Shown piece by piece: positions 14,325-46,751 of a stretch of 64,000 nucleotides of DNA; positions within the stretch are counted from its first letter, which is position 1; every line of letters starts with the position of its first letter. A program made the translations under genes and the position numbers. The stretch is from an uncultured Flavobacteriaceae bacterium (GTDB lineage: Bacteria > Bacteroidota > Bacteroidia > Flavobacteriales > Flavobacteriaceae): the NCBI GenBank assembly GCA_947503005.1, contig CANNCA010000001.1, positions 496,001-560,000 on the forward strand, in the 5' to 3' direction. Below the pieces are notes generated by a model. That model was not told the origin of the DNA. It saw only the letters and a list, made by a program, of their open reading frames with translations, and made no database searches.

Positions 14325-15047
14325 ATGTACGCAATTGTAGAGATGGCAGGGCAGCAATTTAAAGTTGCGAAAGACCAAAAAGTATATGTTCACCGTTTGC
14401 AAACTGAAGAAGGTAAAAAAGTAACTTTTGACAATGTACTTCTTTTGGATGACGGTAAGAACGTAACTATTGGCGCCCCAGCTATAGACGGAGCCGCTGT
14501 TGAGGCTAAAGTCGTTAAACACCTTAGAGGTGATAAAGTAATCGTCTTCCATAAAAAGAGACGTAAAGGGTACCGTAAGAAAAATGGTCACCGTCAGTCT
14601 TTGACTGAAATCGTAATCGAAAGCATCGTAGCGAAAGGCGCTAAGAAAGTGAAAGCTGCTGAACCTAAGAAGGCCGCACCTAAAAAGGAGGTTGCACCTA
14701 AGGTAGAAGCTCCAAAAGCAAAAGCAGCTCCTAAGGCAAAAGCAGCTCCTAAGGCGAAAGCTGCTCCAAAAAAAGAAGCTACGCCCAAAGCGAAACCGGC
14801 CAAAGCTGACGATTTGAAAAAAATCGAAGGTATAGGCCCAAAAATTGCTTCAACTTTAATCGAGGCAGGAATCTCAACATTTGCTGATTTAGCAAAAGCC
14901 AAACCAGCGAAAATATCTGAAATCATCGCTGACGTCCGTGGAAATCACGTAACCGATACTTGGCCAGCACAAGCGAAACTAGCTGCAGATGGCAAGTGGG
15001 ACGAGTTGAAGAAATGGCAAGACGAATTAGATGGCGGTAAAGCGTAA
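14325..15047 (+). CDS. rplU: 50S ribosomal protein L21 with long C-terminal extension
   Basis: Residues 1-104 are a normal L21 ([14 protein letters not shown] at the start; the signature [12 protein letters not shown] region as [16 protein letters not shown]). L21 is normally about 100 residues; this protein has 240. After L21 comes a Lys/Ala/Pro linker (about 107-160) with tandem copies of a 6-residue unit (KAAPKA), and then a compact domain with a helix-hairpin-helix motif ([21 protein letters not shown], 165-185) of the kind found in DNA-binding proteins. I recall similar long L21 proteins in other flavobacteria. The role of the extension is unknown. rpmA follows 52 bases later. Confidence 0.92.
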
Positions 15048-15462: not shown

Positions 15463-16740
15463 TTATAGATACTCTGATGTGAAATGTGCCAAATCTTGGC
15501 CTTCCTCCAAAACCTCGATTACTCCCAAAGCCGAGCTTTCGCCTGATATTATAGCTGCATTCAATGATCCGTTCAATAGATGGTCTCCGGCAAGAAAAAG
15601 GGTATCCTTTAGTTTTGATTCCGAGGGAGCAAGGTCATATTGAACATTGCTCAAATCAGGTAGTGCCTTCGAAATACTATAGTGTTTTAAAAAGCGAGTA
15701 GTTCTTATATTGCATTGCGTTCTCAATTCTTCTTCTACGCGAGCAATGAGATCTTTTTTATTAAGGTTGTGGTCTTTAACAATCGTAACACAAAGTAGTT
15801 CTTTATCCGCTTTATTAGTAGTAGCCAAGCTAGTATGATAAAAGATATTGTTAATCAGTGCTTTATCTGCAATTAGACCGATCAAAGGTTTTGAAATCAC
15901 CCTTTGCTCTACTTCAAAGTACAAAGTATCACAACTCTTCCACGTAATATTTTGACCTTTAAGATTGAATATCATTTTGTCAGGTGTAGTGGCGATAATA
16001 GTGAAGTGACTTTGTAGTTCCTCACCGTTATTCAAAATGATTTTACCATCTTCAACCGAATGTACTTTTGTATCAAAGCGGTAAGTGGTATTTTTTAGAT
16101 TGGCTTTTAACTGTTTAGGAATTGCTTCTATCCCAGCTTTAGGCAGGGCTGCATCTCCCCTACCGAACATTTTATAAACGAACTCGAACATACGGCTTGA
16201 GGTTTTGAGGTCCGGTTCTAGGAATATGCCTCTAAAAAAAGGTTTGAAAAAGCCTTCAATTATACTTTTCGAAAAACCATAATCCGCTAGATACTGCGAT
16301 GTTGAGGTTTCAGGTGCCACGAAAATATCTGTTAAGGACTTCTTTTTCAAGGATGTGTTCAGCTTTAAAATTTTCAGCTTATCGGAAATACTTCCTACAT
16401 TGGCTAGTAGCGTCTTCAACAATAGCGAAGGATTTCTAAGTGGATCGCCGATGGTCTTTTGTTTTCCTGACTCAAAAAGAACGGCTCCCGAATAAAAGCG
16501 TTGTAGTTCCAATGCTTTATAATCCAAATACTTTTTAGCCATGGGATATTCCGTCAATAAAACCTGAAAACCATGATCCAAATGGTAGCCTTCAACGACG
16601 TCTGTTTTTAGTCGACCTCCAACACGATCTGTAGCCTCGATAATCGTTGGGTGATAGCCGCGTTCCTCGAGCACCTTAGCAGCAATCAATCCACTTAAAC
16701 CTCCGCCTACAATGTGTATTTTATATAAATTCTTTTCCAA
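15463..16740 (-). CDS. FAD-dependent amine-oxidase-like enzyme
   Basis: 425 residues from a TTG start at 16740. The Rossmann FAD motif is at the N-terminus (IHIVGGGLSGLIAAKVLEERG, then EATDRVGGRLKT). The C-terminal end keeps the FAD-contacting strand FLAGDHLLNGSLNAAIISGE. The layout is that of the NAD(P)/FAD-dependent oxidoreductase group with protoporphyrinogen oxidase and phytoene desaturase. The substrate is unknown. It is the last gene of the ten-gene minus-strand photolyase operon, 58 bases after the dehydrogenase remnant. Confidence 0.85.
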   Translation of the reverse strand: MEKNLYKIHIVGGGLSGLIAAKVLEERGYHPTIIEATDRVGGRLKTDVVEGYHLDHGFQVLLTEYPMAKKYLDYKALELQRFYSGAVLFESGKQKTIGDPLRNPSLLLKTLLANVGSISDKLKILKLNTSLKKKSLTDIFVAPETSTSQYLADYGFSKSIIEGFFKPFFRGIFLEPDLKTSSRMFEFVYKMFGRGDAALPKAGIEAIPKQLKANLKNTTYRFDTKVHSVEDGKIILNNGEELQSHFTIIATTPDKMIFNLKGQNITWKSCDTLYFEVEQRVISKPLIGLIADKALINNIFYHTSLATTNKADKELLCVTIVKDHNLNKKDLIARVEEELRTQCNIRTTRFLKHYSISKALPDLSNVQYDLAPSESKLKDTLFLAGDHLLNGSLNAAIISGESSALGVIEVLEEGQDLAHFTSEYL

Positions 16741-16798
16741 AATAATTGATTAATTAGAGTAGTTCGTGAATCCTTAACCGCATAGTTTATTATCATTT

Positions 16799-17080
16799 CT
16801 AATTTTTAAAATTAGCATTTTTGGCGAATGCAACGGTTTGCAACAGATGGTCTTCTAAATTGATTTTTATGAATTCCGAAACGTTGCCGCTATTCAATAT
16901 GTTCTGAATCCGCTTTCGAGGCGAAGTGGCCGGGTTTTTCCAAACAGGTAAATATGTTTTTACTGTTCGATCCAGTTTTTGTTCAAGTAGCGAAAGTGGG
17001 ATTCTAGAGCCCAAAGTGCCCGTTACTCCAGTAAGTATGAAGGTTAAATTATTCGAATTATTTGCTTTTATATTGGGCAT
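16799..17080 (-). pseudogene. Truncated thioester-reductase-like dehydrogenase
   Basis: 93 residues. The first half is the start of an extended short-chain dehydrogenase: the NAD(P)-binding motif TGVTGTLGSRI (18-28) and a following region (RKRIQNIL) like that of thioester reductase domains. Family members continue for another 200 or more residues, but here the frame stops after about 90 and the next gene follows 58 bases later. The catalytic YxxxK is absent. The gene keeps its place in the operon (9 bases after the membrane protein gene), so it looks like an internal deletion remnant; a short functional protein is less likely. Confidence 0.6.
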
Positions 17081-17089
17081 TCATCTGTT

Positions 17090-17500
17090 TTATAAGGTTT
17101 TCAATGCCGAAACGACAAAGATAAGTGTCCAGAGTGCTGTTCGAATCCAATTTTTAGATACAAGTTGATTCAAAAGTCCTTCGGTAGCCGACCCGGAAGA
17201 AACTGAAATGTGCATGGGTAAAAACTGTTTAAAAGTACTAATCCAGACCAAAGTGATTAAAATGATACTTCCAATGGTAAATAACGAACGTTCCGAAAAT
17301 AACTGAAGGCCAGCCGTAATTAACTGTCCGAACATCAAAGGAATCACAACTATTGAAATGCCAAAAGTATACTCTTGATGCCATGCGATGAGGTTTTCTT
17401 TTGAATAATACCGAAACGCGGGATAGATTGTCAATTGTACCAGCCAAATCAGAACTAGCAGACCAAAATCGAAAAGCAGTCGGAGGGTATCCAGTTTCAT
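17090..17500 (-). CDS. Four-helix membrane protein of the photolyase operon
   Basis: 136 residues with four hydrophobic helices (about 8-26, 47-65, 72-88 and 117-134). I do not recognise a named family. It is translationally coupled to the PhrB-like photolyase gene: its ATG (17498-17500) overlaps the photolyase stop. Position and coupling suggest a role linked to the photolyase genes. Confidence 0.7.
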   Translation of the reverse strand: MKLDTLRLLFDFGLLVLIWLVQLTIYPAFRYYSKENLIAWHQEYTFGISIVVIPLMFGQLITAGLQLFSERSLFTIGSIILITLVWISTFKQFLPMHISVSSGSATEGLLNQLVSKNWIRTALWTLIFVVSALKTL

Positions 17501-18975
17501 AGCATATTCAAATAATTCTCCGCATTTTTCAAATGGTTCTGTTTTTTCTCATCCGACATTTTATCGAAAGTTCGCACTAACATGCCTAATCTGGGATTTG
17601 ACAAAAAGAAATCGCGATGCGTATGCATGAAGCGCCAAAATAGGCCGTCCCAAGTTTCTTGCCAATCGCCCTTATCGTAGTCGCTCATTTTCATCAAATA
17701 GTTGCTACCACTGATATAGGGCTTAGTCGACATTAGGCCGCCATCGGCAAATTGGCTCATTCCGTAAACATTGGGTACCATGACCCAATCATAGGCGTCT
17801 ATGAAGAGTTCCATAAACCATTGGTATACGTCATCAGGGTCGAATTCGCAGAGCACCATAAAATTACCGAGTACCATCAGGCGCTCGATATGATGGCAAT
17901 ATCCCGTTTTCAAAACTTTTTTGATGGTCTTGTCAATGGGATAAATTCCGGTAGTGCCATCATAAAACGAATTGGGAATCTTTTTTGTGAAGTTCCAAAA
18001 GTGTTTGGTGCGCTCATAACGTCCTTTACTTTCATAAATACCACGAATAAATTCACGCCAACCCATTATTTGGCGAACGAAACCCTCCGTCGAATTGATG
18101 GGAATGTCGTTTTCTGAAGCGTAAAAAAGACTTTTTTCCACAATTTCATCGGGCGTCAACAAACCTACGTTCATCATCGGGGTCAGTACGCTGTGGTTCA
18201 AGATGGAATGTTCGGCTACAATGGCATCTTCGTACGCACCAAATTCCATGAAGCGCTGTTCGAAGAACTGTTGTAACCAATCTTGGCTTTTTTTAAAGGT
18301 GTTGGGATACAGTAGTTGTTCTGTTATTTCCCCGTAATGCGTTGAAAAATGTTTTTTCACATAGTCTGTTGCCTCCGTGTAGTAGGCATCCGAATCGGGA
18401 AATTGAACCGTGGGCGGTGTTTTTTTCTTGGGATATTTTTTTCGATTTTCCGTATCGAAAGTCCATTTACCACCTTCTGGCTTTCCGTCGCTGTCGATTA
18501 AAATGTTTCGCTTTTTGCGTTCTCCGGTGTAAAAACTGGTTTGGTGAAATTTCTTTTTTTCTGGTTTGAAAAATGACGACAGTTCTTTTTTAGTATTCAA
18601 GAACATTGGGGAATCATAAACCGTAGCTTCGATTCCGTATTCGGAGCATTTGTTCTGAATCCGTTTTTCCAACCAATAGTCGACTGTGTCGATGTAGTGG
18701 ATTTGTTTGATTCCTTTTTCTGCCAAAAAGGGTATCAATTTTCGAATATCAGATGTTTCTTCCTGCGCTTCCACATAAGTTACGTTGCATCCTGATTCCT
18801 TAAGGAAGTCCGCGTAAAATTTCATGGTCGCCCTATGAAAGGCTATTTTTTGCTTGTGAAAAGGGTATTGTTTGAAGTATAGAAATTCTTCCACCAGATA
18901 AACAGGGAGTTTTAAATCTAACAAAGGACTTTTCTCAAACAGTTGATGTGGAAAAACTAATTTTATCGCTTTCAT
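17497..18975 (-). CDS. Photolyase/cryptochrome-related protein (PhrB-like, no Fe-S cysteines)
   Basis: 492 residues. The N-terminal alpha/beta domain ([16 protein letters not shown]) and the C-terminal FAD region ([39 protein letters not shown]-like motif split over residues 380-410) match the deoxyribodipyrimidine photolyase-related (DPRP/FeS-BCP) family, which includes (6-4) photolyase PhrB. In that family the C-terminal half has four cysteines for a [4Fe-4S] cluster, with a Cys-x2-Cys pair after SDY. Here that place reads SDYDKGDW with no cysteine, and the whole chain has only four Cys, all outside this region. DNA repair, light sensing or both are possible. It overlaps the genes on both sides by four bases. 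Confidence 0.88.
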
Positions 18976-19100
18976 TTAATTCGTCTACATTTTTCACTAC
19001 AATATTTAACATCTTCCCAATTTTTACTCCATTTTTTACGCCAAGTAAATGGCCGTTCGCATACCAGGCATTCTTTTTGTGGCAGGTGTTGTTTTTTCAT
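18972..19100 (-). CDS. DUF2256 zinc-ribbon-like small protein
   Basis: 42 residues from ATG 19100. It has two cysteine pairs, Cys11-x2-Cys14 and Cys34-x3-Cys38, with the conserved core FTWRKKW between them. This is the DUF2256 signature; the pairs probably bind zinc. The gene is too short for usual ORF calls. It overlaps the photolyase gene (18972-18975) and the flavin reductase gene (19097-19100) by four bases on each side. DUF2256 is often found next to photolyases, and its function is not known. Confidence 0.85.
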
Positions 19101-19738
19101 CGATTAGCATTAAAATCAGGTATTTCGCTTGCACGGGCATAGGGATAACGTTCAATTTTCTTCAAATCATAATAAGTGTTGAGCCCTGATATGCCTACGC
19201 CCTCAATTTGTGCCAAATCAATATCCTCTTCTTCTCCTAGGGCCGAATCGGGAATAACCAAATGCTGAATTTCGCCGATAACGAAAATGGTATCGTTCCA
19301 TTTAATAGGAATCGCTTCACGAAACTCCAAACCCATTTTGATTTCACTTTCTTTTACAAAAGGCGCCTTTAAATCGGCGAGATATTCTTCGGTCAATCCG
19401 CAGGTTTTAAACTCTGAATCAGTTCGGTCGATTTTTGCCGAAGTATAGTGCGCGTTTTTTGTGAATGATCGCTGTACATGATTGATGGTATACTGTTTGT
19501 TCTGTAAAATGTTTTCGTACGTATGTCGGGGCACTTCGCCTGTTGGTCGTAAAACAAAACCCAAAAGTGGTGGGGCACTGCCCAAATGCACTACGGAACT
19601 GAAAATCGCCAAATTGGACTGACCAGCTTCGGAAATGGTACCGATAAGATTGGCAGGTTTGATCCCTGATACCGCGTTCATGAACTTTATCTTCTGAACC
19701 TTATTCATCATTTCGATATCTTCCCTAGTGTAGTACAT
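19097..19738 (-). CDS. Flavin reductase-like FMN-binding protein
   Basis: 213 residues, the split-barrel flavin reductase fold (DIM6/NTAB type). The flavin-binding stretch [30 protein letters not shown] and [12 protein letters not shown] (about residues 24-68) are typical. It may supply reduced flavin to the neighbouring photolyase-type proteins; that is inference from its place. It is coupled to DUF2256 by a four-base overlap and starts 9 bases after the stop of the FAD-domain gene. Confidence 0.85.
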
Positions 19739-19747
19739 GTTTTGGAT

Positions 19748-20860
19748 TTAAAATTTCAATTGCTTTTTACATTTTTTCCAAAATCCGAAGAACGATGAAA
19801 AGTAGCCTGTTACTTCAAACATCCAATCACGTGATATTTCTGTGCCTCTGTAGGTCTTATTCAAGGGATGTTCTTTAAAATGTATGTCAGCCGGATTGTA
19901 TGCCTTGGTAAGCGCACTAAACTCGCCAACAAATACTTGAATACCTTCGATGTTTTCGGCCAATTGTAACATGAAATCAATACTCTTTTGTGAAACAGGG
20001 TATTGTTCAAAAACCGAAGGTTCTAACAGTAGAATTCTATTTCCTTCGATTTCAGCATCCCATTTGGGGTCTAGATTGTAAAAATTGTAAATGTAGGTTG
20101 GCAAAGTCGGTTTGAGTTCTATCGCAGTTTTCGTGGGAAAAGGTGTGACTAACCTCTTTTTTGAAGTAGTCTGTAGTACTTCAGGAATTCCCATTTTCGA
20201 AAATACATCGTAGTCAACATCTAAAAAAGTATCCTTCTGTTCGGTATAACAATACTTATTAATGTTATTTTGATTGGCAACATATTTCTTGTTGCTGTTC
20301 GAACCTGCGACCCATTGCCAGCTGAGTGCGTTACTGGCCCAATCACCATCCAATAAATTATAGTACATCCATTGCGCCGGATACTTCCAATGACTCTGGC
20401 CCATATTGCAACAAATAGCGGCAATGTACATACGCACATGATTGTGTAGATACCCTGTTTTGTAGAATTCTGATATGGCTTCATCAATGGCTTGAATTCC
20501 CGTTTTGCCTACTATTACGGCTTTCGGGATTCCGTAGTTCGATACTGGTTCTTGAGATTTTTTTAAATCAGAATTAATGGCATCATCTTTGGCGATCCAA
20601 ACTTGCTGCCAATAATCCCTCCACGCCAATTCTTGTATAAATTTTTCGATTTGGGCAGGTTTGTAGCCGCGTTCAAGAACGTTCTCAAGAACTTGTTTGG
20701 TCGAAATGACTCCTCTTGAAATATAAGGCGAAAGATAGGTGACCGCTCCGTCTATAAAATTTCTCGAACGACCGTATTTGAGGGGGTCGATATTAGCTAT
20801 ACGTTGTAAAATGGAATCATAAGAAGTAGGAAATATGCTAACATCTTCAAATAATTGCAT
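19748..20860 (-). CDS. FAD-binding photolyase/cryptochrome protein without N-terminal antenna domain
   Basis: 370 residues. Residues about 30-235 are the photolyase FAD-binding helical domain: YLSPYISRGVIS, ELAWRDYWQQVW, GYLHNHVRMYIAA and DGDWASNALSWQWVAGSNSNKKY are the classical blocks. Photolyases start with an alpha/beta antenna domain of about 130 residues, but here the FAD domain begins almost at the N-terminus. About 120 extra C-terminal residues (ILLLEPSVFEQYPVSQ... VFVGEFSALTKAYNP... FFGFWKKC) have an alternating alpha/beta pattern like an antenna or Rossmann domain. This looks like a swapped domain order. It is part of the photolyase operon. Confidence 0.85.
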   Translation of the reverse strand: MQLFEDVSIFPTSYDSILQRIANIDPLKYGRSRNFIDGAVTYLSPYISRGVISTKQVLENVLERGYKPAQIEKFIQELAWRDYWQQVWIAKDDAINSDLKKSQEPVSNYGIPKAVIVGKTGIQAIDEAISEFYKTGYLHNHVRMYIAAICCNMGQSHWKYPAQWMYYNLLDGDWASNALSWQWVAGSNSNKKYVANQNNINKYCYTEQKDTFLDVDYDVFSKMGIPEVLQTTSKKRLVTPFPTKTAIELKPTLPTYIYNFYNLDPKWDAEIEGNRILLLEPSVFEQYPVSQKSIDFMLQLAENIEGIQVFVGEFSALTKAYNPADIHFKEHPLNKTYRGTEISRDWMFEVTGYFSSFFGFWKKCKKQLKF

Positions 20861-20862
20861 AT

Positions 20863-21144
20863 CTATCTTTTACTTATTTTGTTTCCTGAAATTCCCTTTT
20901 GACGAGAACATTTGAACCGATTTATTTCTGGATTGCGCTTTTTCAAGTGTTTCTGGCTAACACCGCTATTCACTCGCTTTCTCCAAAGATTAAAACTGCT
21001 TCTTTTGAGGACGCCACGCATAACTTTAATGACTTCTTTCTCGGGCAAGCCAAACTGGAATTCGATGGCTTCAAAGGGCGTTCTATCTTCCCATGCCATT
21101 TCGATGATTCGGTCCAATTCTCTTTCGGTAAACTTAGTCTTCAT
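20863..21144 (-). CDS. TIGR03643/DUF2805 family protein
   Basis: 93 residues from ATG 21144; an upstream in-frame ATG at 21189 is less likely because the family starts at this point. Residues 1-50 have a helix-turn-helix-like pattern (FTERELDRIIEMAWEDRTPFEAIEFQFGL, EKEVIKVMR), and the tail is Lys/Arg-rich. I recognise it as the TIGR03643 protein often found near photolyases. Its function is unknown. It overlaps the DUF2452 gene by 11 bases. Confidence 0.85.
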   Translation of the reverse strand: MKTKFTERELDRIIEMAWEDRTPFEAIEFQFGLPEKEVIKVMRGVLKRSSFNLWRKRVNSGVSQKHLKKRNPEINRFKCSRQKGISGNKISKR

Positions 21145-21562
21145 TTTGAGATTCAAAGGTTTCCAAACGTTCCCACATTTTGTCAGCATTCAATTTAAAG
21201 GTGCCTATATAATCAAAATTACATTCGCGCGGAGCGATGACTGATAAGAACGGTTCTTGGTTTTTATTTCGGTAAAGATGGTAGGTATTGCCAATGACAG
21301 GTTCAAAATTGAATTTTGCGCTATAAACTAGATTATTGTATTCAAATTGTGCTATCATCGCATCATATTCTGCCTTTAATTCAAGGTACTTAGCGCTGAT
21401 CTGTTTGTTTACGGCATGGATATTCCGGTTTTTCCAGGCTACGGTGTCAGAAGTTGTAATGACCGGTGCACCTACATCAGTCGCGTAGGGTTTTAATGAT
21501 GCTGTATATTTTTGTTCGTCGGAATCATAAACCACATTATCCGGTTTTTTCTTAGCGCACAT
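21134..21562 (-). CDS. DUF2452 family protein
   Basis: 142 residues. The sequence pattern (PDNVVYDSDEQKYTASLKPYATDVGAPVI, then PVIGNTYHLYRN) fits DUF2452, a conserved protein of unknown function often encoded with photolyases. There is no signal peptide, so it is likely cytosolic. It is part of the operon, 8 bases downstream of the glutathione peroxidase gene. Confidence 0.8.
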   Translation of the reverse strand: MCAKKKPDNVVYDSDEQKYTASLKPYATDVGAPVITTSDTVAWKNRNIHAVNKQISAKYLELKAEYDAMIAQFEYNNLVYSAKFNFEPVIGNTYHLYRNKNQEPFLSVIAPRECNFDYIGTFKLNADKMWERLETFESQNED

Positions 21563-21570
21563 AGCAAAGT

Positions 21571-22113
21571 CTATTTCAGATGTTTCGTGATTTTAGAGCT
21601 CATAGGTTTGGTTATCGAATAGAAGTAATCTACCAGCCTACCTTTATCATCGACCAAGTATTTTTGAAAATTCCATTTGACCGAACTGTTTTTAGCCCCG
21701 TTCAATTCCTTTTTAGTCAACCAGGTATAGAGCGGGTGTTGCTTGCTGCCTTTGACAGCTAACTTTTCGGTCAACAAAAAGGTAACCCCGAAGTTGCGTT
21801 CACAAAAAGTTTGTATTTGTGAAGCGGCTCCAGGCTCTTGATTACCAAATTGGTTGCAAGGAACACCTATTACGACTAACTCCTCACGATACAAATCACT
21901 AAGTTTTTGTAATTCACGATACTGCGGTGTAAAGCCACATTCAGAAGCTACATTTACAAAGAGGATGTATTTTCTTTTGAAGTCAGCTAGTTGAATCGGT
22001 TTGCCGTTGAGATTGTTAACAGCGATATCGTATAAAGTAGATTGCTTTGAGGGATTTTCTTTTTTTGATATGTCTGTAGAAGGGGGCAACTTTAGTTTTT
22101 CGAGTAAATTCAT
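21571..22113 (-). CDS. Glutathione peroxidase family protein
   Basis: This thiol peroxidase has 180 residues. Peroxidatic Cys59 is in NVASECGFTPQY, the second signature VIGVPCNQFGNQEP has Cys86, and WNFQKYL has Trp147 and Asn148. Cys86 could serve as resolving cysteine, so thioredoxin may be the reductant, as for other bacterial Cys-type GPx. It has an N-terminal extension of about 25 residues without a signal sequence. It is the first gene of the light/oxidative-stress operon, and a hairpin lies just upstream. Confidence 0.93.
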   Translation of the reverse strand: MNLLEKLKLPPSTDISKKENPSKQSTLYDIAVNNLNGKPIQLADFKRKYILFVNVASECGFTPQYRELQKLSDLYREELVVIGVPCNQFGNQEPGAASQIQTFCERNFGVTFLLTEKLAVKGSKQHPLYTWLTKKELNGAKNSSVKWNFQKYLVDDKGRLVDYFYSITKPMSSKITKHLK

Positions 22114-22129: not shown

Positions 22130-22157
22130 GCTTACGGTGGTTCAAGCCACCGTAAGC
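22130..22157 (-). terminator. Perfect hairpin between the 73-residue gene and the photolyase operon
   Basis: An 11-base stem (GCTTACGGTGG with CCACCGTAAGC) around a six-base loop. It lies just after the stop of the 73-residue gene on the minus strand. No T run follows it, so its terminator role is uncertain, and it could instead be an upstream regulatory structure for the operon. Confidence 0.5.
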
Positions 22158-22163
22158 TTGTCA

Positions 22164-22385
22164 TTAAACCATAGGTTTACCATTGAGACGCTTTTCGATT
22201 TTCTTTTTAATTACCGTTAAGCGTTTCATGATATCCATTAATTCGACCTCTTTGGTCTCTTTATATATTTCGTTTATTTCTAAAATCAAGGCTTTTACTT
22301 CCCTTGAGGAAGAAACTCTATCGCTTGTGGTCATCCCGGACATTTTACGTCCTTCGAATTCTGCCACTCTTTCCATTAAATCCAT
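22164..22385 (-). CDS. Small helical protein, unknown function
   Basis: 73 residues, mostly charged and helical, with heptad-like spacing in residues 28-70 (EVKALILEINEIYKETKEVELMDIMKRLTVIKKKIEKRL), which suggests a coiled coil. No signal peptide. I do not recognise a named family. It has no close neighbour on the same strand, and a hairpin follows. Confidence 0.6.
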   Translation of the reverse strand: MDLMERVAEFEGRKMSGMTTSDRVSSSREVKALILEINEIYKETKEVELMDIMKRLTVIKKKIEKRLNGKPMV

Positions 22386-22445: not shown

Positions 22446-22610
22446 TCAAACTAATTTTTCCATTTGTTTTATAACTTCCTCTGCCTCGGCTACTTTTTCA
22501 TCGCTTAACCTTCTGTTTGAGGTTGATAGTTTATGAGCTTCACCCATCAACTTTTTGTACCTTTCTTGTAGTACTTCTTTTTCCGATTTCTTTTTAAACA
22601 GTCCGAACAT
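22446..22610 (-). CDS. Lacal_2735 family small protein
   Basis: 54 residues from ATG 22610 (an ATG at 22646 gives a longer frame but less family-like start). It begins MFGLFKKKSEKE and continues as one charged helix with the conserved EAHKLSTSNRRLSDEKVAEAEE. This is the flavobacterial Lacal_2735 pattern as I recall it; the function is unknown. The small genes here may share a leader, but no promoter was seen. Confidence 0.75.
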   Translation of the reverse strand: MFGLFKKKSEKEVLQERYKKLMGEAHKLSTSNRRLSDEKVAEAEEVIKQMEKLV

Positions 22611-22727
22611 AAGTGCTATTTCATAATTTACAAGCGCTACACGCACCGTAAATATACAAAATGTTTAATGATAAATATATTTTGTTAAACAGAATAACAA
22701 TACTTTAACTAATGTTTGTATTTCAAC

Positions 22728-28024: not shown

Positions 28025-28330
28025 ATGAAAAAAGTATTTTTAGTAGCAGCATTATCTTTAGGAACAATGACTGCTTTTGCACAAGAAGAAGAAACTGCAG
28101 TAGAAGCAGTAGCAACTGAAGTAATGGAAGAGCAAGATGCTTTCACCGAGATTGCTATCGAAGAATTGCCAGAAGCTATTACAGTAGCTTTAGAGGCTGC
28201 ACATCCAGGTGCTACAATTTCTCAAGCTTATATCAATGAAGCTGCACAGTACAAGTTAGAGGTTGCCAAAGAAGACGGTGAAGCTGTTGAGCTTTACGCT
28301 GACGCTGAAGGCAACTGGATAGAGATGTAA
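28025..28330 (+). CDS. PepSY-like small secreted protein, copy 1
   Basis: 101 residues with a signal peptide (1-19, ending AFAQ). The mature part is acidic and has the single PepSY-like repeat (LPEAITVALEAAHPGATISQAYINEAAQYKLEV then LYADAEGNWIE). This is the PepSY_like/DUF2874 pattern; its role is unknown. It is paralogous to the gene at 28764, with the same length and most conserved positions shared, so the pair arose by local duplication. Confidence 0.85.
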   Translation: MKKVFLVAALSLGTMTAFAQEEETAVEAVATEVMEEQDAFTEIAIEELPEAITVALEAAHPGATISQAYINEAAQYKLEVAKEDGEAVELYADAEGNWIEM

Positions 28331-28763: not shown

Positions 28764-29069
28764 ATGAAAAAATTAGTTCTATTAGTAGCATTGGCTTTCG
28801 GAAGTTTAACTGCATTCGCCCAAGAGGCTGAAACCGAAGTGGCAGAGCTAGCAACTGAGGTGGTAACTGCACAAGATGACTTTTCTGAAGTAGCGGTAGC
28901 TGAATTGCCAGAAGCTGTAACAGCAGCAGTGGCTAAGAACTATCCAACGGCTACTATTGATAAAGCATACGTTAATGAAGCACAACAATTCAAGTTGGAA
29001 GTTTCTTTAGAAGATGGAACTTCAGGAACACTTTATGCTGACGCAGAAGGTAATTGGATAGAATTGTAA
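28764..29069 (+). CDS. PepSY-like small secreted protein, copy 2
   Basis: 101 residues, the same length as copy 1. The signal peptide ends AFAQ, and the repeat (LPEAVTAAVAKNYPTATIDKAYVNEAQQFKLEV, LYADAEGNWIE) follows. The two differ mainly in the linker after the signal peptide and at surface positions. It has its own terminator downstream. Confidence 0.85.
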   Translation: MKKLVLLVALAFGSLTAFAQEAETEVAELATEVVTAQDDFSEVAVAELPEAVTAAVAKNYPTATIDKAYVNEAQQFKLEVSLEDGTSGTLYADAEGNWIEL

Positions 29070-38923: not shown

Positions 38924-39796
38924 ATGATTTCAATAGACCCGAAAGAAGTTTCCACTCCTCAACTACATGGTTATTTGCTCGGTGCAATTGGCCCTAGGCC
39001 CATAGCTTTTGCCAGCACTATTGACGAAATGGGAAGGCCGAATCTCTCTCCTTTCAGTTTTTTTAATGTTTTCAGCGCAAACCCGCCCATTTTGATTTTT
39101 TCGCCAGCTCGACGCGTTCGAAATAATACAACCAAGCATACGCTTGAGAATGTGATGAAAATCAAAGAGGTTGTGATAAATGTGGTGAATTATGATATGG
39201 TGCAACAAGTATCTTTGTCAAGTACCGAATACGACGAAGGGGTAAATGAGTTTGAAAAAGCAGGTCTTACCGCCTTGAAATCAGATGTGGTGAAACCTTT
39301 TCGAGTAAAGGAATCGCCGGTTCAATTTGAATGCAAGGTGGCCAAAGTAGAAGCCTTGGGAAACGATGGTGGTGCGGGAAATTTGATTTTTTGTGAAGTG
39401 GTGAAAATTCATCTTGACAAATCCGTTTTGAATGAGGCGGGAGGTATTGATCAACAAAAAATAGACCTTGTTGCTCGGATGGGTGGAAATTGGTATTCTC
39501 GGTCCAACCAAGGCATGTTCGAAGTTCCTAAACCGCTTTCTAGCTTGGGTATTGGGGTTGACAAAATTCCCGAGCATATTCGAAATAGTGATGTACTTAC
39601 CGGAAATGATTTGGGCATGTTGGGAAATGTTGAAGAAATGCCGTCTGAAGAGGAAGTGGCCAATTTTATGGCGTCACATATCGAAATTCGCTCGCTTTTA
39701 AGTAGCGGTGAACGAAAGGAAATCGAATTAAAAGCAAAAGAATATCTAAACAATAATGATGTGCTTTCCGCATGGAAAGTACTTCTATCGGATTAG
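38924..39796 (+). CDS. Flavin reductase family protein
   Basis: 290 residues. The N-terminal split barrel binds FMN: IGPRPIAFASTIDEMGRPNLSPFSFFNVFSANPPI at about 22-56 is a classical signature of the flavin reductase-like (DIM6/NTAB) group. About 80 extra C-terminal residues are charged and helical. The substrate and partner are unknown. Distinct from the photolyase-operon flavin reductase. Confidence 0.85.
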   Translation: MISIDPKEVSTPQLHGYLLGAIGPRPIAFASTIDEMGRPNLSPFSFFNVFSANPPILIFSPARRVRNNTTKHTLENVMKIKEVVINVVNYDMVQQVSLSSTEYDEGVNEFEKAGLTALKSDVVKPFRVKESPVQFECKVAKVEALGNDGGAGNLIFCEVVKIHLDKSVLNEAGGIDQQKIDLVARMGGNWYSRSNQGMFEVPKPLSSLGIGVDKIPEHIRNSDVLTGNDLGMLGNVEEMPSEEEVANFMASHIEIRSLLSSGERKEIELKAKEYLNNNDVLSAWKVLLSD

Positions 39797-46076: not shown

Positions 46077-46751
46077 ATGGAGCAATTATTACAATCGGTC
46101 AAAATCGGAATTAACCAAAAAATCTACGTGAAAGATCCTGAGTCTTCCGAATTAGGCAAAAGAATTGTGGAGCAAAGTATCTTGATGATTAATGAGATGG
46201 GTTTTGAAAGTTTTACTTTTAAAAAGCTTGGCGCCAAAATTGGCTCCAATGAAAGCTCTATTTACAGGTATTTTGAGAACAAGCACAAATTATTACTTTA
46301 TTTAACTTCATGGTATTGGGGTTGGTTAGAGTACCAGTTGGTTTTTGCGACCAATAGTATTGCAGATCCTAAAACAAAGCTTGAAAAAGCTTTAGATATA
46401 GTGACCAAGACTACGGTCGAAGATTCTGCCTTTTCGCATATCAATGAGGTTTTATTACACAAGATTGTGATTAACGAATACTCAAAATCATATTTGACAA
46501 AAGAGGTCGACATAGAAAATAAGGAGGGATATTTTGTGATATATAAAAGGCTGGTCCTTAGAATCAGTAAAATGATCCAAGAACTAGATTCAAATTATAA
46601 ATACCCTAATAGCTTAGCAAGCACAATTCTAGAGGGTTCATTGCACCAACACTTTTTAAAAGACCATTTCAGCTCATTGACCGATTGTCACGAAGATGAT
46701 GATCCCACCAAGTATTTTCTTCAATTAGCATTTTCTTCACTCAAATCGTAA
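46077..46751 (+). CDS. TetR family transcriptional regulator
   Basis: 224 residues. The N-terminal HTH (about 28-75: GKRIVEQSILMINEMGFESFTFKKLGAKIGSNESSIYRYFENKHKLL) is a textbook TetR DNA-binding domain. The C-terminal ligand domain is all helical. It starts the operon with the export genes, the ABC start being 6 bases after its stop, and it probably represses the operon through the palindromes upstream. Confidence 0.95.
   Translation: MEQLLQSVKIGINQKIYVKDPESSELGKRIVEQSILMINEMGFESFTFKKLGAKIGSNESSIYRYFENKHKLLLYLTSWYWGWLEYQLVFATNSIADPKTKLEKALDIVTKTTVEDSAFSHINEVLLHKIVINEYSKSYLTKEVDIENKEGYFVIYKRLVLRISKMIQELDSNYKYPNSLASTILEGSLHQHFLKDHFSSLTDCHEDDDPTKYFLQLAFSSLKS

Follow-up and report, generated by a model that had tools for sequence, protein, structure and literature searches.

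A conserved photorepair gene unit of Flavobacteriaceae and an inverted repeat that may mark a light regulon

The window analysed here is a 64,000-nt stretch of DNA from an uncultured Flavobacteriaceae bacterium (GenBank assembly GCA_947503005.1, contig CANNCA010000001.1, positions 496,001 to 560,000). It contains a unit of photorepair genes, all read from the minus strand, and an inverted repeat in front of them, TGTTTAA-N16-TTAAACA, that is a candidate operator. The composition of this unit, the recurrence of the repeat in other genomes and the proteins that accompany the (6-4) photolyase homologue of the unit are described below.

Gene content and order of the photorepair unit

Ten same-strand genes had been named in a preliminary description of this DNA, and our analysis agrees with both their arrangement (minus strand, 22113 to 15463) and the families given. 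In the direction of transcription, they encode a glutathione peroxidase (GSHPx, GPx; 21571-22113), a DUF2452 protein (21134-21562), a DUF2805/TIGR03643 protein (20863-21144), a short photolyase-like protein (SPL) of 370 amino acids (aa) and of SPL/NewPHL layout, with an FAD_binding_7 but no DNA_photolyase domain (19748-20860), and a flavin reductase-like protein (Flavin_Reduct, PF01613; 19097-19738). These are followed by a 42-aa DUF2256 protein with a CxxC...CxxxC pattern (18972-19100), a 492-aa homologue of prokaryotic (6-4) photolyases, Pro64, with DPRP and FAD_binding_7 domains and without Fe-S cysteines (17497-18975), a four-transmembrane (4TM) protein without a Pfam family (17090-17500), an SDR remnant (16799-17080) and an FAD-dependent protein of the Amino_oxidase family, which has a TTG start (15463-16740). 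The remnant is a 93-aa open reading frame (ORF) with an internal deletion: a related locus (L031) encodes the intact SDR, of 367 aa, and the remnant can be aligned with its residues 1-61 and 345-366. The match of the remnant to NAD_binding_4 lies below the cut-off.

The genes are tightly packed, with gaps of 8, 2, 9, 9 and 58 nt and with three 4-nt overlaps (flavin reductase/DUF2256, DUF2256/Pro64 and Pro64/4TM). The 11-nt overlap reported for DUF2452 and DUF2805 holds if the latter gene starts at an internal ATG (21144); its longest ORF reaches 21189, which makes the overlap 56 nt. The extent of ten genes was found to be too short. Two further genes lie upstream on the same strand and recur in relatives, and we therefore assign them to the unit, which brings the number to twelve. 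The probable first gene (22446-22610, ATG at 22610, longest ORF from GTG 22646) encodes a small DUF6435-type protein, a label taken from its homologue in locus L058. The second, sp7 (22164-22385), encodes a conserved 73-aa protein whose homologue has no Pfam family.

Gene overlaps and one repeat at the front would fit a single operon, but a hairpin is present between sp7 and GPx (22130-22157, minus strand). It has no clear T-run and a folding energy of -20.1 kcal/mol (66-nt stretch folded); a differing but similar hairpin is present in L031, and there is none in L033. Terminator-like sites were not above the level of shuffled sequences (8 versus 6.7), and a scan of the window against Rfam at gathering scores gave no match. 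The twelve genes may be carried on one transcript. A second flavin reductase-like protein of the window was recognized by eye at 38924-39796.

Gene order was compared in 101 loci: the window, 20 stretches of other genomes and, out of 245 relatives, the 80 best. When loci whose (6-4) homologues share 95% identity were collapsed, 97 were left. All of the loci were selected for this homologue and many of the contigs are short, so the presence counts are lower bounds. The comparison, which the preliminary description had proposed, revealed a conserved order in Bacteroidota that goes beyond chance. DUF2256 is present in 65 loci, the flavin reductase in 52, DUF2805 in 51 and SPL in 42, and in 61 of the 65 loci that have it, DUF2256 lies upstream of the (6-4) homologue on the same strand. 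Directly ordered pairs comprise DUF2256-Pro64 (40 loci), flavin reductase-DUF2256 (24), DUF2805-SPL (22) and SPL-CPF3 (20), while the position of DUF2805 is variable (upstream in 23 loci, downstream in 28). CPF3, which has about 490 aa and belongs to the photolyase family, is encoded in 28 of the 97 loci and missing from the window unit; in relatives its gene sits between those for SPL and flavin reductase (e.g. L035, 2243-3730). Winogradskyella- and Polaribacter-type loci contain up to four photolyase-family genes together with genes for GTP cyclohydrolase I, TspO, TetR_C_23 and an ABC1 kinase.

These comparisons support a conserved photorepair unit. Of the single photoprotection system that had been proposed for the ten genes, this part stands; the oxidative-stress genes turned out to be optional, with GPx in 23 and Amino_oxidase in 12 of the 97 loci. 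DUF2452 and the 4TM protein were found in 11 and nine loci, respectively. The unit is also patchy within the genus of the window: the (6-4) homologue was unmatched in five of 13 other genomes (G001, G002, G003, G010 and G012), some of which are incomplete, yet G010 and G012 carry sites of the repeat.

The inverted repeat and the genes behind it

Alignment of the stretch before the first gene in twelve relatives revealed a paired motif, exact in some of them and imperfect in others. In the window, it forms a 30-bp inverted repeat (22662-22691), and a -7-like element, TATATTTA (22649-22656, minus strand), can be read from the sequence 5 nt past it. A survey of 100 loci (1.6 Mb, after removal of the duplicate L051) with the pattern TGTTTAA-N14..24-TTAAACA yielded 47 exact copies, compared with a mean of 0.5 in base-shuffled sequences, and 46 of them have a cluster gene within the next 400 nt downstream. 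The spacer measures 16 nt in all 47 copies; spacings of 8-15 and 17-30 nt gave no copy in these loci. The sequence TAnnTTT[G/A] starts 4-5 nt past the repeat in 36 of 44 oriented sites, and the repeat is therefore considered to overlap the presumed operon promoter. There is one site in the window, versus 0.05 in dinucleotide shuffles. A promoter search with TTG-N-TAnnTTTG failed to mark the start of the operon. The analysis was confined to exact and near-exact copies, because at three to four mismatches the repeat no longer exceeded its reversed control in the window (1 versus 3 and 6 versus 12).

The repeat occurs at nine places in the genome to which the window belongs, and the reversed control at one. 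Besides the photorepair unit, it precedes a rhodopsin gene (at 54 nt) and a divergent BCD (blh-type) gene (2 nt), an operon of SRPBCC-like, SDR and class I photolyase genes (32 nt), a TetR_C_23-ABC1 pair (168 nt) with htpG on the opposite side (238 nt), the divergent genes nth (3 nt) and bcp (21 nt), a gene for a fasciclin protein (62 nt), one for a protein similar to the latter (164 nt), and one for a 153-aa protein of unknown function (12 nt). The ninth place (35 bp, C6:276234) was set aside as a near-perfect hairpin.

With a slightly longer pattern, 87 hits were obtained in 23 other genomes (24 genomes with our own), against one for the control; hits were counted per strand, so that palindromes count twice. 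All 13 genomes of the same family, Flavobacteriaceae, have the repeat (77 strand hits), and the remaining ten genomes account for 10 strand hits, with none in G039, G052, G067, G103 and G150. We read 31 neighbour places by hand, leaving out the genome of the window and the loci chosen for their neighbours (L199-L205); L206 and L207 were chosen for tandem sites. The repeat stands before rhodopsin/blh genes at five of these places, genes for extracytoplasmic function (ECF) sigma factors at four, photorepair-cluster genes at four, the SRPBCC operon at three and TetR_C_23 at two. It precedes nth/bcp, a MerR-B12 gene and a crtI-type gene once each, fasciclin-type genes six times and the gene for the 153-aa protein twice; two places show nothing clear. 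The sigma factor and MerR-B12 labels come from profile matches, and crtI was assigned by eye (its profile match being Amino_oxidase). In L203 and L215, and likewise at the end of L192, a class I photolyase gene comes after the one for the SRPBCC protein, and the rhodopsin gene is preceded by the repeat also in G010, G012 and G013.

Some of the neighbours recur. Fasciclin-type genes are found behind the repeat in L162, L165, L184, L189, L193, L209, L211 and L212, and the gene for the 153-aa protein lies 11-12 nt behind it in three genomes (L163, L171 and L173). The ECF sigma gene is preceded by an exact repeat in four genomes (L166, L180, L182 and L183) that belong to other orders and have rhodopsin.

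The two flavoproteins and putative partners of the (6-4) enzyme

The FAD_binding_7 domain of SPL stands at the N-terminus, and the protein has no N-terminal alpha/beta antenna domain. In its structural model (mean pLDDT 94.4), the helices of the FAD domain (residues 14-220) are followed by an alpha/beta part (255-342), i.e. the topology is inverted, and some 210 of its residues can be matched to photolyase structures in the Protein Data Bank. As modelled, the 370-aa protein is of SPL/NewPHL layout. According to the accessible parts of their descriptions, published SPL/NewPHL proteins likewise have an N-terminal FAD domain, no N-terminal antenna domain and a second domain at the C-terminus. The members found here differ in belonging to Bacteroidota and in sharing a putative operon with a (6-4) homologue.

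Pro64 is similar over its full length to solved DPRP members (7ykn, E 7e-84). Alignment by eye indicates that it keeps the equivalents of His366, Tyr424 and Tyr430 of PhrB, residues with roles known from the literature, as far as its accessible parts describe them; a tyrosine at the position of PhrB Trp342 (by eye) is a point against the explanation preferred below. The four Fe-S cysteines are missing from Pro64 and from the homologues of 98 of the 101 loci, and are kept in L048, L049 and L050. Judged by its sequence, Pro64 is not a member of FeS-BCP, the Fe-S subtype. Fe-S-free prokaryotic (6-4) photolyases have been published as subgroup M (PMC9178010, in the portion available), to which the window protein is likened by the absence of the four cysteines alone; unlike what that portion describes, its gene shares a conserved unit with those for SPL, DUF2256 and DUF2805. 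The preliminary description had called the two flavoproteins atypical; the idea that they are new kinds was dropped, as both are already in print. A two-photolyase operon of Synechococcus sp. PCC 7335, as presented in part of PMC9649867, likewise holds two photolyase-family genes, with an 11-nt overlap, but it consists of two genes only and these belong to other photolyase classes. One further FAD_binding_7 protein, class I-like, is encoded in the genome of the window, away from the unit.

The distribution of the small proteins encoded beside Pro64 was followed in 296 Bacteroidia genomes. DUF2256 is present in 121 and DPRP in 120 of them: 108 genomes have both, 13 DUF2256 alone, 12 DPRP alone and 163 neither. 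DUF2805 occurs in 119 genomes, 100 of which also have DPRP. The family-stratified odds ratio for the tie to DPRP is 79 for DUF2256 and 86 for DUF2805. As a control, 222 genomes with a PF00875 photolyase were split by the presence of DPRP and DASH (94 genomes over the DASH cut-off). DUF2256 was found in 70 of 78 genomes with DPRP and DASH, 38 of 42 with DPRP only, seven of 16 with DASH only and six of 86 with neither; the corresponding numbers for DUF2805 are 64, 36, five and 12. In 54 of the 121 genomes DUF2256 lies more than 5 kb from DPRP/DASH or on another contig, which contig breaks explain in part. DPRP is still present in 42 of these 54, and the link is therefore more than hitch-hiking.

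Outside this set, 14 named control genomes were screened: DUF2256 was found in Caulobacter and S. elongatus, and DPRP in Caulobacter, S. elongatus and Haloferax. Plasmids contribute 133 records of DUF2256. Ten of their neighbourhoods were opened, and five have a photolyase-family neighbour; two of these five neighbours are DPRP proteins, one of them beside TIGR03643. DUF2256 has been assigned to the TRASH clan of metal-binding fingers, according to the part of its description that is available. For DUF2805, a Foldseek search with its model (mean pLDDT 70) gave no match at E <= 0.001, so that a helix-turn-helix reading remains a guess. From the phyletic and positional link, we infer that DUF2256 and DUF2805 act biochemically as dedicated partners of the (6-4) enzyme.

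Two other ideas about DUF2256 were discarded. A tie to DASH was suggested by its position (it adjoins DASH in 21 of the 121 genomes and DPRP in 39), but its presence tracks DPRP, as the genomes with only one of the two photolyases indicate. Replacement of the lost Fe-S cluster was rejected because L049 and L050 keep the cysteines and carry DUF2256.

Two plasmids deserve a separate mention. That of Acinetobacter sp. WY4 (L142) has adjoining genes for a DPRP photolyase, DUF2256 and TIGR03643, near one for an FAD-dependent oxidoreductase, and in that of Pantoea soli (L146) the gene for 6,7-dimethyl-8-ribityllumazine synthase lies in the vicinity of DUF2256. In Fe-S (6-4) photolyases, lumazine serves as the antenna.

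Possible light control and alternative readings

The set of genes behind the repeat suggests that it marks a light regulon. We lean slightly towards the view that the unit is a light-controlled photorepair operon and that a light-sensing regulator acts through the repeat. This regulator would bind the repeat over the promoter and shut the operon in the dark, and light would free the repeat and thereby turn the operon on; a MerR-B12 (CarH/LitR-like) protein would be the most likely candidate. As the same repeat stands before the proteorhodopsin/blh genes, the class I photolyase operon, TetR-ABC1 and nth/bcp, the repair of UV damage would be switched on together with light capture. SPL would repair cyclobutane pyrimidine dimers and the Fe-S-free DPRP enzyme (6-4) lesions. 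The flavin reductase and the peroxidase would serve to maintain flavins in the reduced state and to clear peroxides, which is the weakest step of the scheme.

The identity of the regulator is at present a guess. The preliminary description had suggested a search for a shared regulator, which brought to light a shared operator and a MerR-B12 gene beside carotenoid-type genes; these are signs of shared light-type regulation. The gene in question, in the genome of the window (G000:C5, near 266 kb), encodes a CarH/LitR-like protein with MerR_1 and B12-binding_2 domains and adjoins genes that resemble crtI, crtB and crtZ (by eye). In G197, an exact site is located 45 nt upstream of a homologue with the same two domains. 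The regulon of the MerR-type repressor LitR/PplR of Pseudomonas offers a likeness: in the part of PMC9758184 available, it comprises light-inducible genes for a photolyase, an SDR, an FAD-dependent oxidoreductase, FolE and CryB. Its operator, T(G/A)TACA-N12-TGTA(C/T)A, differs from the repeat described here, that part of the account names no rhodopsin, and MerR-B12 is in our case a candidate regulator. The unit is therefore not filed as a member of the LitR regulon, although it may work alike.

Several observations weigh against this scheme of a light-controlled operon. An exact site was found in only 32 of the 100 loci (hand count), several units of the same genus carry imperfect copies, and the repeat is absent genome-wide from G039 and G052. 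Among the 11 rhodopsin-positive genomes of the 23-genome search, only three (G239, G277 and G160) have an exact site before the rhodopsin gene, and the fasciclin-type genes at six of the 31 places are not known to be connected with light. In the window's genome, the MerR-B12 gene has only a site with three mismatches, a level at which controls match too, the known LitR consensus differs from the repeat on inspection, and the hairpin sits within the unit.

The repeat could instead be bound by the TetR_C_23 protein, autoregulated and paired with the ABC1-type kinase, with oxidative or membrane stress as the signal and light acting through reactive oxygen only. Its gene lies downstream of an exact repeat in 19 of 47 site contexts (hand count), and also in the genome of the window (at 168 nt) and in five of the seven genomes of the genus that encode a near-full homologue. 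In 21 of 97 loci the gene is a neighbour of the photorepair cluster, adjoined by ABC1 every time, and nth/bcp and the peroxidase genes have the repeat or the unit in common. However, in the genome of the window TetR_C_23 is on a different contig from the operon, it was unmatched in five of 14 same-genus genomes (some incomplete), and MerR-B12, crtI-type and rhodopsin genes among the targets suit a light sensor better; we regard this alternative as unlikely. The role given to the flavin reductase in the preliminary description, that of supplying the operon's photolyases with reduced flavin, appears more improbable still. The gene directly precedes DUF2256 in 24 of 97 loci and directly follows CPF3 or SPL in 23, but it was not found in 45 loci (short contigs included), and PhrB, according to the available part of its literature, reduces its own FAD by light through Trp residues.

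It is doubtful, though somewhat less so, whether DUF2256 and DUF2805 simply mark life in sunlight and are carried along with photolyase islands. DUF2256 occurs in 61 of 65 rhodopsin-positive genomes and, as given above, in 13 genomes without DPRP; it also adjoins DASH in some genomes and other photolyases on plasmids, and five of the ten opened plasmid neighbourhoods have no photolyase neighbour. Its rarity in genomes whose photolyases include neither DPRP nor DASH, compared with those with DPRP only, speaks against this, and the link to DPRP holds within families and in rhodopsin-negative genomes (both 50, DUF2256 alone 10, DPRP alone 11, neither 160). A partnership with the (6-4) enzyme is weakened by the absence of DUF2805 from all 14 control genomes, although DPRP is present in three.

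As a separate observation, a TetR-like protein is encoded in the window at 46077-46751, and a similar-looking ORF (by eye) lies opposite TetR_C_23 in L204, 64 nt from the operator.

We see an even balance for the wider proposal that TGTTTAA-N16-TTAAACA is an undescribed operator that defines a light regulon in Flavobacteriaceae and, as outliers, in other orders of Bacteroidia, and that DUF2256 and DUF2805 are dedicated accessories of (6-4) photolyases. Our confidence in this proposal and in light control of the unit was lowered because of the small shares of loci and of rhodopsin-positive genomes with exact sites. A word search of one open-access library, which did not cover the letters of the operator, found no published account of the operator or of the DUF2256/DUF2805 link. 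A gene-proximity cluster of photolyase and photolyase-related genes, enriched with rhodopsin, has been reported for rhodopsin-bearing marine Flavobacteriia (PMC5932025); it resembles the unit described here, but the available part of that report describes neither an operator nor a link between the (6-4) enzyme and DUF2256/DUF2805.

If the proposal is true, proteorhodopsin and its retinal gene, carotenoid genes, several photolyases, base excision repair and peroxiredoxin would switch together under a CarH/LitR-like or TetR_C_23 regulator, and a single regulator may govern life in sunlight, from photorepair to the light-driven proton pump and other sunlight genes. To our knowledge, how flavobacteria couple rhodopsin phototrophy to UV defence is an open question, and a cis-element of fixed geometry makes such coupling testable. 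Likewise, DUF2256 and DUF2805, both widespread and of unknown function, would gain a concrete, testable role as partners of (6-4) photolyases.

Two further features of the window were noticed by eye. A ribosomal protein L21-like ORF (14325-15047) has a long lysine/alanine-rich stretch and a helix-hairpin-helix-like C-terminus, and two adjoining genes (28025-28330 and 28764-29069) encode similar, secreted-looking proteins of 101 aa.

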